Assembly: GCF_014201715.1 (NCBI RefSeq)
Contig: NZ_JACHFD010000002.1
Location: 186,001 to 250,000 of the forward strand
DNA length: 64,000 nucleotides
Direction of reading: 5' to 3'
Source of the DNA: Haloferula luteola
GTDB taxonomy: Bacteria; Verrucomicrobiota; Verrucomicrobiia; Verrucomicrobiales; Akkermansiaceae
In this document: in pieces, positions 9,162 through 14,099 of the stretch
Layout of the letters: every line of letters begins with the position of its first letter
How positions within the stretch are numbered: the first letter of the stretch is position 1
Translations under genes and position numbers: made by a program
The notes under the pieces: generated by a model
Told to the model about the DNA's origin: nothing
The model's input: the letters and a program-made list of their open reading frames with translations, nothing else
The model's database searches: none

Positions 9162-10280
9162 ATGCTTGGCATGTTGCATCGATCCGTGCTGCTCGGCGGG
9201 TGGCTCTTGTTGATTTCCCCTTCCCTGAAGTCCGAGGAGCTCCCACCACCCACAAGTCCCAGTGGACTCTCTGAAGCGGATCAGGAGAAAATCAAAAAGG
9301 TCGTTCAAGAGCACTTCAACTCGGTGGTGCTGGTCGAAGGCGATCAATCGGCTGGGAGTGGATTCGTCGCCCACGCCGATGGCAAAACCTGGGTCTACAC
9401 GGCCGCTCATGTCTTCTGCGGAAATAAGAAACTCAGCCTGGCCACTGCCGATGGCCGCAAACTCAAAAAATTCGGCTCCTTTCAGGCCTCCCGCGACGCG
9501 GATTTGGTTCGAATCGAATTGCTGGATGAATTCGATTCGAAGGTTGAGATCGGCGATCCCGGAGTGGCGCAGGTGCAAGACCCGCTGCTCGCCGTCGGCA
9601 ACAGCGGCGGAGCCGGAGTTCTGACCGTGTTGAGCGGACAGATTCTGTCTCTCGGGCCGGCTCAGATGGAAGTTTCTGCAGGCGTCATTCAAGGGAACAG
9701 CGGCGGACCGATTTTTTCGGGCGAATCGGGAGAAGCCATCGGAGTGGTTACCCACCTCGTTGCCGCACGCGAAGACTTGTGGGCCAAGGATACCGACTTT
9801 TCCGAAGTGCGACGTTTTGCCACTCGTCTCGACCGCGCCATCGAATGGGATGAAATGCCCATCGGCCGTTTCCTCTCCGAAAAATCCCGCCTCGACGAAT
9901 TCAATCGCAATACCCAGGTGTTGTTCGCGCTCAGCGCGCTCGATCCCGGTCAGGCAGGATTGCGCCTTAACACCCGCGTGAGTGAAGAGGGCCCCACGCT
10001 CCTCAGCATTCTATCCGAAAATGAGGACAAGCGAGTGGTCAGCGAACTCATCGAAATGAATCGCAGTTTGGGAGAACGAAGCCTCCGCACTTCGGAATCG
10101 GATCTTAAAAAGCGCTTCTCGCGCTTCTACTCCACAGCACTTCGGGATCTCAATAAGGACCGGAAGGACCTCCAACCCGAAGGGTTCTCAGGATACAACC
10201 GCGCCTCCGCTCGCAATGCCTTGGAGTGGCGTGATGACGCGGTCCAACGCCTCGAGCGGGTCTCCTCCGCAATCCGTTGA
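9162..10280 (+). CDS. Exported trypsin-like serine protease
   Basis: A 372-residue protein. A signal sequence (SVLLGGWLLLISPSLKS) is followed by a chymotrypsin-fold domain with the full triad: His83 in YTAAHVFCG, Asp114 in SRDADLVRIE and Ser180 in GVIQGNSGGPIFSG. The domain ends near residue 245. The C-terminal 120 residues are helical and charged, and I recognise no domain in them. There is no PDZ domain, so it is not a normal DegP. A second start at 9171 is possible. It probably acts in the periplasm on unknown substrates, and may be cotranscribed with the DUF1287 gene. Confidence 0.85.
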   Translation: MLGMLHRSVLLGGWLLLISPSLKSEELPPPTSPSGLSEADQEKIKKVVQEHFNSVVLVEGDQSAGSGFVAHADGKTWVYTAAHVFCGNKKLSLATADGRKLKKFGSFQASRDADLVRIELLDEFDSKVEIGDPGVAQVQDPLLAVGNSGGAGVLTVLSGQILSLGPAQMEVSAGVIQGNSGGPIFSGESGEAIGVVTHLVAAREDLWAKDTDFSEVRRFATRLDRAIEWDEMPIGRFLSEKSRLDEFNRNTQVLFALSALDPGQAGLRLNTRVSEEGPTLLSILSENEDKRVVSELIEMNRSLGERSLRTSESDLKKRFSRFYSTALRDLNKDRKDLQPEGFSGYNRASARNALEWRDDAVQRLERVSSAIR

Positions 10281-10349: not shown

Positions 10350-10670
10350 TCAGGCAAGAGCCTCCAGCTTAGCCTTCAGCTGGTCTTTGGTGACATTGGC
10401 ACCCACGATCTGATCCTTCACCTCTCCGCCCTTAAAGAAAAGCAGCAGGGGAATGCTGCGGACTCCATATTTCACGGAAAGCTCACGAGCTTCGTCCACA
10501 TTCACCTTACCTACCTTGGCTTTGCCTTCGACCTCGCCCGAAAGCTGCTCGATCACCGGGCCAATCATTTTGCAGGGACCACACCACTCCGCCCAGAAGT
10601 CCACGAGGACCGGAACGTCGGAATCGATCACCTCACTTTGGAAATTGCTGTCGTTAAGTTGAAGCGCCAT
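10350..10670 (-). CDS. trxA: Thioredoxin
   Basis: A 106-residue classical thioredoxin with the redox motif WCGPC (Cys30 and Cys33), the cis-Pro segment VRSIPLLLFFKGG and the buried Asp in LVDFWAEWC. It has no signal peptide, so it is a cytosolic disulfide reductase serving ribonucleotide reductase and other targets. It is a single-gene unit with a strong terminator. The ATG has no evident Shine-Dalgarno sequence. Confidence 0.97.
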   Translation of the reverse strand: MALQLNDSNFQSEVIDSDVPVLVDFWAEWCGPCKMIGPVIEQLSGEVEGKAKVGKVNVDEARELSVKYGVRSIPLLLFFKGGEVKDQIVGANVTKDQLKAKLEALA

Positions 10671-10732
10671 GGCCGAACCATGCCGCTCGAATGACGGATG
10701 TCAACTACCGGGGATTCCCCTCATCTTGCAAA

Positions 10733-10767
10733 AGAAAAGCCCGGCCTCCCTAGGGATGACCGGGCTT
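10733..10767 (-). terminator. Intrinsic terminator downstream of the 63-residue membrane protein gene
   Basis: Arms AAGCCCGG (10737-10744) and CCGGGCTT (10760-10767) are followed on the minus strand by a T-rich stretch. It lies 23 bp beyond the stop at 10790 and separates that operon from trxA. Confidence 0.8.
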
Positions 10768-10789: not shown

Positions 10790-10981
10790 TCACTCGCCGA
10801 GGTCGACCGGCTCATCCGCCGGGGCCTCTTCAGAATCCATCGCTTCATCGCTCCCCATATCCGAGGAGTCCGAAGCCGCTGGAGCGGAGGTGTCAGCCAT
10901 CTTGGTGTCCACCAACGAAGTGGTGAAGGTCAAACCAGCGACAGCGAGAGCAAGAACGAGTGCGATGATGGGCGGAACCAT
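10790..10981 (-). CDS. Small membrane protein with acidic tail, function unknown
   Basis: A 63-residue protein: an N-terminal hydrophobic helix (MVPPIIALVLALAVAGLTF) followed by about 40 residues rich in Asp, Glu, Ser and Ala that carry strong negative charge. The tail could lie in the periplasm or the cytoplasm. It starts 27 bp after the 213-residue gene on the same strand and shares that operon's terminator, so the two products probably work together. I recognise no family. The ORF has a clear terminator and the codon use of its neighbours, which supports it as real. Confidence 0.65.
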   Translation of the reverse strand: MVPPIIALVLALAVAGLTFTTSLVDTKMADTSAPAASDSSDMGSDEAMDSEEAPADEPVDLGE

Positions 10982-11008
10982 GAGATTCGGATTGTGAGAG
11001 CTTGGTGC

Positions 11009-11650
11009 TTAGAACAATTGGGACCACTCGACATCCTTCGGAGCGGCATCTTCATCGTGGCCGAGCCACAGTTGAGCGGTCGAAATCTGCAGGAACAAGA
11101 CCACTGCAGCGGCAACGGCGGTGAGGATCGAAAGACCGACCACCACCGGGCTGTCCACGCCTTCTTCCTCCTCCTCGTCATCCAAGGCACCCATGGTAGC
11201 CATTTGCGAGGCGGCAGGAGCAGAGGCGCCCATCGGTTGAGTGGGCGGCTGAAGCTGAACCGTGGCTTTCGGGAGGCTCGGTGAGCTCGCACCTGCGGTA
11301 GCAAGTTTGATGGTCGGAGCGGGAGCCGGAGCGGCGCCTGGGGCGGAAGGAGCCGCACCCGTATTCAGCTTGATCGTCGGAGCCGGGGCTGGGGCAGGAG
11401 CACCCGCCGGCTTGGTCGCCACAGGAGCCGCCGTCGGAGGCTTAGGAGCTGAAGGAACCGGAGCTGCCGTCGGCGGGCGAGGAGCAGCGGCCGTGGGAGG
11501 CATCGGAGCGGAAGGCTTTGGAGCCGAGGGGGCCGGAGCTGCTCCCGCAGGTGCCGAAGGGGCATCGGCAGCTTTGAGGGTCACACGGACCGTTTCCTTT
11601 TTGAGCGGGACGCTCGAAGTGTGCTTAGACGGCTGATCTTGATCGCTCAT
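11009..11650 (-). CDS. Ala/Pro-rich single-pass membrane protein, lineage-type
   Basis: A 213-residue protein. The start is taken at 11650 (MSDQDQPSKHTSSVPLKKE). Residues about 25-150 are a low-complexity Ala/Pro linker interrupted by short basic/beta segments that resemble each other: KKETVRVTLK, PTIKLNT, PTIKLAT and KATVQLQ. An acidic stretch DDEEEEE precedes one membrane helix (VVVGLSILTAVAAAVVLFLQI). A short tail ends in VEWSQLF. The layout is an unstructured cytoplasmic arm anchored to the membrane. I know no function; proteins of this general look are, to my knowledge, frequent in Verrucomicrobia. It is the first gene of an operon with the 63-residue protein. Confidence 0.75.
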   Translation of the reverse strand: MSDQDQPSKHTSSVPLKKETVRVTLKAADAPSAPAGAAPAPSAPKPSAPMPPTAAAPRPPTAAPVPSAPKPPTAAPVATKPAGAPAPAPAPTIKLNTGAAPSAPGAAPAPAPTIKLATAGASSPSLPKATVQLQPPTQPMGASAPAASQMATMGALDDEEEEEGVDSPVVVGLSILTAVAAAVVLFLQISTAQLWLGHDEDAAPKDVEWSQLF

Positions 11651-11775: not shown

Positions 11776-12489
11776 TTAAAAAACCACGGCATGGGGAGCC
11801 ACCAGAGTCCAGCCTGCCTCCTCCAAGCTCAGCCGCAGAAAAGTCAGCAGTTTCACCGCCGCCACCCCATCGCCATGAACGCAAAGGGTTTCCACCCGCT
11901 GGGCAAGGTCGATCGCCTGAACGAGCGCTTCCTCCGGGTCGTGAATCACCGCGTTCGGTTGACCTCGCGGCACCAGTTTCCCATCGCCACCATACCGGCG
12001 ATCGGCAAATCCCTCACGGATCACACGCAGTCCCCTCCCCCTTCCTTGATCCTCCAGCCACCCATCAGGCGGCACGGTGACTCCCGCCTCAGGAAAATGA
12101 TGCGCGACCTGATTCAAAAAAACATCGGCCCAGTCGGCAGCACCGTCCAGCTGGTGATAAAGCGCCCCATGAGCTTTCACGTGGGCGACCTCCACCCCGA
12201 CCTCCTCGGCCAATTTCCGAAATCGTGACAACTGCCGAACCAGCAGCTCCTCCAATGCACCCATCTCCATCTTCATCGGCCGACGCCCGAAATGCTCCCG
12301 ATCTTCGTGCCCCGGGTGGGCCCCCACCGCCACCCCTTGAGCTGCCGCCCACTCCATGGCCCTGCGCAGAGTCATTTCATCCCCTGCATGACCCCCGCAG
12401 GAGATGTTGACGGAAGTCGCCAACGCAATCAGGGCTTTGTCGGCATTTCCCCCTTCCCCAAGATCCACATTCAGGTCGATCCGCTGCAT
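11776..12489 (-). CDS. pxpA: 5-oxoprolinase subunit A (LamB/YcsF family)
   Basis: A 237-residue protein with the family's opening LNVDLGEGG, then NISCGGHAGDEMTL, GAHPGHEDREHFGRR, HVKAHGALYHQ and VHGDG. PxpA works with PxpB and PxpC to hydrolyse 5-oxo-L-proline to glutamate with ATP. This cleans up a product formed spontaneously from glutamine. The ATG at 12489 lies 2 bp from the stop of the pxpBC fusion, showing coupling. Longer in-frame starts upstream would run into that gene and add no family sequence. Confidence 0.93.
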   Translation of the reverse strand: MQRIDLNVDLGEGGNADKALIALATSVNISCGGHAGDEMTLRRAMEWAAAQGVAVGAHPGHEDREHFGRRPMKMEMGALEELLVRQLSRFRKLAEEVGVEVAHVKAHGALYHQLDGAADWADVFLNQVAHHFPEAGVTVPPDGWLEDQGRGRGLRVIREGFADRRYGGDGKLVPRGQPNAVIHDPEEALVQAIDLAQRVETLCVHGDGVAAVKLLTFLRLSLEEAGWTLVAPHAVVF

Positions 12490-12491
12490 GG

Positions 12492-14099
12492 CTAGGGCAT
12501 AAGAAACGACAGCCCGAGACGCAACCGCTCGAGGTCTCCCGTCAATTCCTGCCAAGCGAGGATCGCCTCATCGAGCTCCACCTCGCGGAAGTGGACCACA
12601 GTTCCCGGCCAGACTCTGGCCAAGCGTGGTAGATCCGCCGAAATCACATGAGCCACCTGAGGGTATCCCCCGAGAGTCTGGGATTCCGGCATCAGCACAA
12701 TCGGATGTCCATCCGGAGGAACTTGGATCGATCCCGCCACGACCGGCTGTGACACCATTTCGCGCCCGGCACTCTCAAGCCTCGGACCTTCGAGACGCAT
12801 CCCCATCCGATCAGATTGCCCACTGACTCGGAATGCCTTCGATAAAAAGGTTCTTCGGGTCGAGTCGTCAAACTCATGGGCTTGAACCCCGCGCAGCACG
12901 CGCACTTCGACCTCTCCGCCGGGCAATTCCAAAGGAGGCCATCCCACCCTCCAACCGCCAGGCTTGGGCACTCTCGCCTCATCCAACCCCAGCCCCAAGC
13001 GATCTCCTGCCATCAATCGCCGCCCCTGGAATCCCCCAAAGCCGGCCCGGCAATCGGTGGCTCGACTTCCCATGAATTCGGGAACTTGTACCCCCCCAGA
13101 AACGGCGATCACCCCGCGCACGGAACCCAACGGAGAGCGGAGATCGAGCACCTCTCCCGCCAAGACATCCACCATTTTTCCTCCGCCCCGCCACCCCAAC
13201 CACGCCACATGCGCCGCGCGGTCGAACCTCAACCGTGGACCACTCAAGGTCACCTCCAGGACCGCCGCATCGCCCGGATTTCCCACCATGGCATTCGCCG
13301 CAATCATCGAAACCGGATCCGCCGCCCCTCCGGGAGTCACTCCCCAGCGCCGAAATCCCTCGCGAGCTTTGCTCTGGATCGTCGTCATCGGCCCGGCCTC
13401 CAGCACCTCCACTTCACCCCGATGATTTTCAGGAATTCCTACGTCCTTGGGGAAATGAAGGCCCTCCCTCGTCGGAACAAAACGCACGCGGTCTCCAGGA
13501 TTCAGCGTACCGGGGACATCCCGGCTCCCATCAAACAAAACGAAGTCGGTTCTTCCCAGCACCCACCATCCAGCTGGCGATGCGCAGGGATAAATGCCGG
13601 CCTGAGCTCCAGCGATGGCCACCGCACCCGGCAGAACCATCCTCGGGGTCGCCTTACGGCCGAGCTGCAAAGCCTCCGGCAATCCAAGCAAATAAGGGAA
13701 TCCTGGAGCAAACCCAAGAGTCGCCACTTGAAAGACCGCCTCTGAGTGCAGGGAGACCACCTGTGACTCCGAAAGTCCCAACCGGATCGCCACTTCCTCC
13801 AAATCCGGTCCGTCCTCCCCTCCATAACGAACGGGGATCTCGATCAAACGACCTTGCAACCGATCCGCCCCGTCATCATCCGTGCTCAATTCCCTGACTC
13901 GCCTTCCCACCTCCGTCAGGTTGCCGGGATCGGTATGCACCGCCACCGTGTCGTAACTGTTCACCACATCGGTGACGCCATCGATCGCAGCAGCCCGCAG
14001 ACGTTCCGCCAACCTCAACACCCGCTGCAAATTCGCGCGGACCTCCCGGCCGGAAGTTCGAAAAAGCCATGCGGAATCACCCAGTGTTTGCCAACCCAC
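12492..14099 (-). CDS. pxpBC: Fused 5-oxoprolinase subunits B and C
   Basis: A 535-residue fusion. Residues 1 to about 220 match PxpB (KipI-like): ATLGFAPGFPYLLGLP, then PRMVLPGAVAIAGAQAGIYP and GWWVLGRT. Residues about 232-535 match PxpC (KipA-like): TIQSKAREGFRRWGVTPGG, DRMGMRLEGP and MPESQTLGGYPQVAHVI. The two are usually separate genes, although fusions occur in the biotin-dependent-carboxylase-like family. It precedes pxpA in the same transcript, so all three 5-oxoprolinase activities are made from two ORFs. The fusion is in frame, with no sign of a frameshift. Confidence 0.93.
   Translation of the reverse strand: MGWQTLGDSAWLFRTSGREVRANLQRVLRLAERLRAAAIDGVTDVVNSYDTVAVHTDPGNLTEVGRRVRELSTDDDGADRLQGRLIEIPVRYGGEDGPDLEEVAIRLGLSESQVVSLHSEAVFQVATLGFAPGFPYLLGLPEALQLGRKATPRMVLPGAVAIAGAQAGIYPCASPAGWWVLGRTDFVLFDGSRDVPGTLNPGDRVRFVPTREGLHFPKDVGIPENHRGEVEVLEAGPMTTIQSKAREGFRRWGVTPGGAADPVSMIAANAMVGNPGDAAVLEVTLSGPRLRFDRAAHVAWLGWRGGGKMVDVLAGEVLDLRSPLGSVRGVIAVSGGVQVPEFMGSRATDCRAGFGGFQGRRLMAGDRLGLGLDEARVPKPGGWRVGWPPLELPGGEVEVRVLRGVQAHEFDDSTRRTFLSKAFRVSGQSDRMGMRLEGPRLESAGREMVSQPVVAGSIQVPPDGHPIVLMPESQTLGGYPQVAHVISADLPRLARVWPGTVVHFREVELDEAILAWQELTGDLERLRLGLSFLMP

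Follow-up and report, generated by a model that had tools for sequence, protein, structure and literature searches.

What do two neighbouring genes for membrane proteins of no assigned role bind: each other, or a common cytoplasmic partner? Both answers were offered by the original prediction for a gene pair in the window, by which we mean the whole 64,000-nucleotide stretch of Haloferula luteola DNA analysed here (contig NZ_JACHFD010000002.1, positions 186,001 to 250,000). Of its two halves we favour the second, the common cytoplasmic partner. On sequence comparison, the larger protein is a member of an unnamed protein family that is kept in many Verrucomicrobiota, often beside trxA. Two points go beyond the prediction, namely a hidden partner that is usually a bare helix of 24-28 amino acids, and a long-lasting link to trxA.

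The KETVR protein and its relatives

The two open reading frames lie on the minus strand, 27 nt apart, just as predicted: a protein of 213 amino acids (11009..11650, stop codon included), which we call the KETVR protein, and a microprotein of 63 amino acids (10790..10981) that begins M-V-P-P and continues with a helix and an Asp/Glu tail. Upstream on the same strand, positions 11776-14099 hold two ORFs that are perhaps putative 5-oxoprolinase genes and that we take to be YcsF/LamB-like and biotin-dependent carboxylase-like. On the other side, an ORF on the plus strand (9162-10280) with a GNSGGPI motif, presumably a trypsin-like protease, converges with trxA.

All segments named for the large protein are present, each on the minus strand: the KKETVRVTLK block (11573..11602, residues 17-26), the motifs PTIKLNT (11360..11380, residues 91-97) and PTIKLAT (11297..11317, residues 112-118), both of a class enriched over shuffled sequence, the KATVQLQ motif (11249..11269, residues 128-134), a DDEEEEE patch (11162..11182, residues 157-163) ahead of a predicted transmembrane helix (11063..11149, residues 168-196 of the AlphaFold2 model), and a C-terminal WSQLF (11012..11026). 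The last is a lineage form of a W-x-x-L-F end that is common in the family of the window and was unseen in the sister-order proteins described below. AlphaFold2, supplied with 33 homologues, predicted a single confident helix at residues 168-196, with block pLDDT values of 79-93 over most of its length; the remainder was modelled as coil with pLDDT mostly below 70 (mean for the protein 60.9). The model places no strands in the linker, and we have dropped the suggestion that the repeated segments are beta motifs; the large protein is, as modelled, a long linker predicted to be disordered, followed by one predicted membrane helix. Because no signal peptide was noticed, the N-terminus is long and disordered and few residues follow the helix in the sister order, the basic threonine motifs are probably cytoplasmic; the acidic tail, which in an Akkermansia-like genus comes after the large-protein helix, would lie on the far side of the membrane.

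Known families gave no name to this protein, in agreement with the claim that it has no assigned role. The window protein matched 0 Pfam-A families at E <= 1, its one NCBIfam match (NF049986, 11.7 bits) lies below the curated cut-off of 50, and a member from the sister order matched 0 Pfam and 0 NCBIfam families. A literature search limited to one open-access library found nothing in print on the KETVR protein, and the same holds for the part of a paper on PVC signature proteins that was available to us (PMC3444138).

How far is the sequence conserved? In an alignment of 33 homologues, drawn from 40 loci (window included) found by a looser KETVR motif, K18, E19, T20, V21, R22, T24 and L25 are invariant, a constancy that is overstated because the named-locus, anchor and sister-order sets were all filtered by forms of the KETVR block. 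Further along the same 33 rows, T92 and L95 as well as A129, T130 and V131 are each found in at least 90%, and L133 is invariant. A fairer guide to the constancy of KETVR comes from three sources. A search of 97 genomes gave large-protein matches at E <= 0.001 in 63. In one locus (L068) the KETVR block is missing and TIKI, TIAL, KATVQL, the helix and a WGQLF end are kept. Finally, none of the 13 loci read in an Akkermansia-like genus (g3), out of 18 genomes with a match and beside 5 further genomes without one, has the block, and the Thr-hydrophobic copies remain. With these two exceptions, the segments are kept in the large majority of the relatives read, which agrees with the original prediction.

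The lineage, too, was placed correctly, as named homologues include Akkermansiaceae, Luteolibacter, Haloferula and Rubritalea. The 80 named loci, picked by a KETVR-containing pattern and 75 of them with enough sequence, include several from the same genomes as the earlier sets under other names. Of 387 genomes of the phylum searched with a profile, 38 match at E <= 1e-5, the Akkermansia-like genus included. With a short-motif (KETVR) profile, 102 of 116 genomes of a sister order, believed to be Opitutales, match at E <= 0.01 and 95 of 116 at E <= 1e-3; the same kind of search gave one convincing family member outside the class (L233). From these 102 genomes we read 29 high-scoring loci, of which contig ends cut 3, leaving 26 usable. 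The sister-order protein is shorter and ends soon after the helix; the loci read keep KKETVRINLPPKP (in one case KKETVRITLPPKP), usually with PTIKLP, PTIKIP or PTVKIP. The second Thr of the KETVR block is Asn in 28 of the 29 proteins, the first Thr having been demanded by the filter in this set.

Further paralogues of the large protein were considered and dropped. The genome of the window itself contains one match (E 1.7e-12), the next scoring E 3.2 and 7.6; the readable second matches elsewhere (L266, L271) are unrelated, and others, L267 and L269 among them, gave no recoverable frame. In four loci (L060, L061, L159, L171) the N-terminal block is itself repeated (VTSAVPLKQETMRVTLK), with two or three occurrences.

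Threonine motifs and their possible readers

The cytoplasmic linkers of the 75 homologues contain 306 copies of T-[IV]-x-[LIV] against 13.8 +- 3.5 expected from 500 composition shuffles, a contrast that measures enrichment and not independent events because the linkers are related. Each protein carries 2 to 6 copies, and Leu ends 295 of the 306. The serine version of the motif is depleted (3 seen, 7.2 in shuffles), and all 40 anchors, window included, carry Thr at the first position, where the filter allowed Ser or Thr.

FHA domains recognise phosphothreonine and fall into pTxxD and pTxxI/V classes, according to the part of the source available to us (PMC6468809). By sequence, ETVR[VI] fits the pTxxI/V class and TIxL fits it more loosely: the motifs have a Thr, seldom replaced by Ser, with a hydrophobic residue at +3, the cited rule naming Ile or Val and the residue here being mostly Leu. 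We tentatively propose, as a possible explanation of these sequence patterns, phosphothreonine-FHA docking. Hanks-type kinases would phosphorylate the threonine motifs of the cytoplasmic N-terminal part; FHA domains, notably those of single-helix FHA proteins of the same genomes, would then bind the phosphorylated motifs; and the large protein would serve as a multivalent dock, gathering its FHA partners into clusters at the inner membrane.

Are the components of such a system present? Among 20 hand-picked genomes, 19 have FHA domains and all 20 have Hanks kinases (Pkinase, 2 to 23 matches per genome), and FHA was found in 3 of 12 hand-picked contrast genomes without a strong motif match. In each of the 19 FHA-bearing genomes at least one FHA ORF continues past the domain into a hydrophobic stretch (best 19-residue mean 1.96 to 3.38), just as the linker of the KETVR protein is followed by one, and two such FHA ORFs carry T-[IV]-x-[LIV] in their own linker (KTIVL, QTVIL). 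In three genomes, that of the window (G000) among them together with G050 and G043, the sole FHA match consists of an FHA domain, a linker, one hydrophobic stretch and a short tail; these FHA-helix ORFs are L281:1214-1894 (G000 C1 near 36600), L282 and L283. Across the phylum sample of 387 genomes, all 27 with a motif match at E <= 1e-3, one of which (G301) is unconfirmed as a real family member, have FHA, compared with 293 of the 360 others, a co-occurrence that is weak evidence because most genomes of the phylum sample have FHA anyway (320 of 387) and relatedness inflates the count.

Several observations speak against docking by FHA domains. One genome of the Akkermansia-like genus (G205) has a homologue (E 4.1e-11) without an FHA hit; conversely, G104, whose best motif match has E 0.049, encodes an FHA protein that carries a helix at its C-terminal end (L310); Leu at +3 departs from the Ile/Val of the cited rule; and the KETVR block is missing from L068 and the Akkermansia-like genus. 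The docking explanation also accounts for nothing about trxA. The part of a paper that we consulted for a kinase consensus (PMC4389566) contains none.

The same motifs could also work without phosphorylation. Under this alternative, which we hold to be possible and give somewhat less credence, Thr-Ile/Val-x-Leu would be a short linear motif that adds a strand to one folded cytoplasmic partner, such as a division, wall or secretion factor. The alternating hydrophobic pattern, the basic or proline neighbours, the many copies and the presence in several orders would all suit such a role, and it corresponds to the common cytoplasmic partner of the original prediction; however, it leaves the rarity of Ser unexplained save by the beta-branched shape of Thr, and no candidate partner was found.

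The trxA neighbour

In the window, the gene 3' of the microprotein on the minus strand encodes a thioredoxin of 106 amino acids with a WCGPC site (trxA, 10350..10670), matching PF00085 at E 8.7e-31 and TIGR01068 with 120.5 bits, above the equivalog cut-off of 96.8. Is this neighbour shared by the relatives? Mostly recognising trxA by a WxxWC frame instead of a profile, we found such a frame within 800 nt downstream in 68 of the 75 named loci. Clustering of 53 loci with long flanks placed a trxA cluster on the same strand in 48, the next presumed real gene family reaching 19, after clusters of 40 and 21 loci had been set aside by eye as antisense-looking frames. In the sister order trxA is the first larger downstream ORF in all 26 usable loci, at gaps of 11-135 nt and always with WCGPC; it lies directly downstream in five members of the class (L197, L200, L203, L224, L229) and 326 nt downstream in L233. 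The Akkermansia-like genus, which has lost both the KETVR block and the microprotein, keeps it in 13 of 13 loci read. The most conserved neighbour is trxA.

A third alternative builds on this linkage: the large protein would tether thioredoxin to the membrane or regulate it, with the Thr motifs or some other stretch of the disordered part binding TrxA without a disulphide and keeping it close to membrane clients. The persistence of trxA across all these sets is what such a tether would lead one to expect, yet we judge it rather unlikely. The 75 cytoplasmic linkers contain no Cys, and trxA was unseen nearby in 7 of the 75 named loci, in L068 and in the four f4 genomes read (4 of 4). Moreover, a separate promoter seems to drive trxA in the order of the window. 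Of 68 loci, 62 have a TTGAC[GA] box in the 110 nt ahead of trxA, compared with 81 of 1360 shuffles, and a terminator test gave a modest signal in the gap between the microprotein and trxA (19 of 52, against 3 of 52 gaps before the microprotein and 11 of 156 shuffles). The window itself has a terminator-like hairpin with a T-run after the microprotein (10729..10767, minus strand, -22.2 kcal/mol), which is absent from the stock scan list, and a TTGACA box 16 nt from a weak CATGGT box (10677..10704, minus strand), a possible promoter of trxA, although the stock promoter scan listed no site in the window. Because of this box and the hairpin lying between, trxA is probably transcribed on its own in the order of the window, and a plain operon of KETVR gene, microprotein and trxA was dropped for this order on the terminator test and the box. 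If phosphothreonine-FHA docking holds, the genetic link of trxA would perhaps reflect a shared condition, and TrxA would probably not be a subunit.

The region between the genes shows a further regularity. In L099, L101, L105, L139, L159 and others, a GC-rich hairpin has a 3' arm that runs into TTGACG just before trxA (GGCTCTTGACG), a hairpin abutting a -35-like box; of 68 loci, 39 carry CTCTTGAC no more than 110 nt from trxA.

The microprotein

In 71 of the 75 named loci the large gene is directly followed by a hydrophobic ORF of at least 18 amino acids; 58 of these ORFs pass a strict rule, and the other 13 were accepted by eye on relaxed criteria (some of only 19 amino acids, one with a GTG start). 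The ORF is missing in L120, L147, L161 and L170. It is present by eye in 38 of 40 loci of a further set that includes the window (missing in L056 and L061, L068 being unjudged), family f4 has it in all four loci that could be read (L092, L093, L191, L195), and it is absent from the 13 loci read in the Akkermansia-like genus and from all 26 usable sister-order loci. In the order of the window the pair usually co-occurs, as predicted, with the Akkermansia-like genus as an exception. Among the 58 strict ORFs, 3 exceed 30 amino acids and 52 are 24-28 amino acids long, so short that gene callers probably skip them. Against SpoIIIAH-like (PF12685) the small protein scored 12.5 bits, below the cut-off of 30.6.

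The Asp/Glu tail is real in the window. It recurs in L031, L032, L034, L045 and L053, all of the genus of the window, and in 3 of the 58 strict ORFs; it is a trait of part of this genus and is not general. In 12 of 13 loci of the Akkermansia-like genus it is instead the large protein that ends in an acidic tail, which hints that the C-termini of the two proteins may have related functions and face one side of the membrane.

Mutual binding by opposed charge, in which the acidic tail of the microprotein would hold the basic motifs of the large protein, is very improbable. The genes are adjacent and the charges are opposed in the window, but 55 of the 58 strict ORFs have at most 30 amino acids, 49 of these 55 are without any Asp, Glu, Lys or Arg, and in the likely topology the membrane would separate the tail from the motifs. 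That the small ORF is a chance reading frame, as its very short length and a pN/pS of merely 0.69 in a wide set might suggest, can hardly be credited, since the strict rule was passed by 58 of 75 loci against 7 of 1500 shuffles, pN/pS is 0.38 in a close set (14 rows, 4 duplicates) and the wide-set value in frame contrasts with 1.08 and 1.33 in shifted frames; on these substitution ratios, the microprotein is under purifying selection. In the phosphothreonine-FHA docking that we prefer, the microprotein helix may pack against the anchor and tune assembly or stability.

Taken as a whole, we picture an inner-membrane signalling module of Verrucomicrobiota with an anchored, disordered phosphothreonine display, anchored FHA readers and, in one order, an extra transmembrane microprotein subunit of 24-28 amino acids, the locus usually lying beside a thioredoxin gene; in this complete form it is rather unlikely. 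The locus gives a concrete test for phosphothreonine docking at the membrane in these bacteria, and for the targets of their Hanks kinases.

How does this arrangement compare with known systems? Type VI secretion offers one parallel in TssL, a membrane protein whose N-terminal part is cytoplasmic. According to the part of the source available, an N-terminal phosphothreonine of this protein is bound by an FHA domain (PMC3953482). In contrast to TssL, the large protein displays many motif copies in a linker predicted to be disordered, and the likeness lies in the proposed mechanism. Among small membrane proteins, PsaJ (photosystem I subunit IX, PF01701) matched one microprotein of 26 amino acids at E 0.024, with 15.5 bits below the cut-off of 22.4; it differs in context and lineage, and we judge the match a chance hydrophobic likeness. 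Similar in size and in its one hydrophobic helix is the short membrane protein YohP (27 amino acids), as described in the part of the source that we could consult (PMC7549839). Unlike YohP, the microprotein described here has a conserved upstream partner gene and, in one lineage, an Asp/Glu tail.
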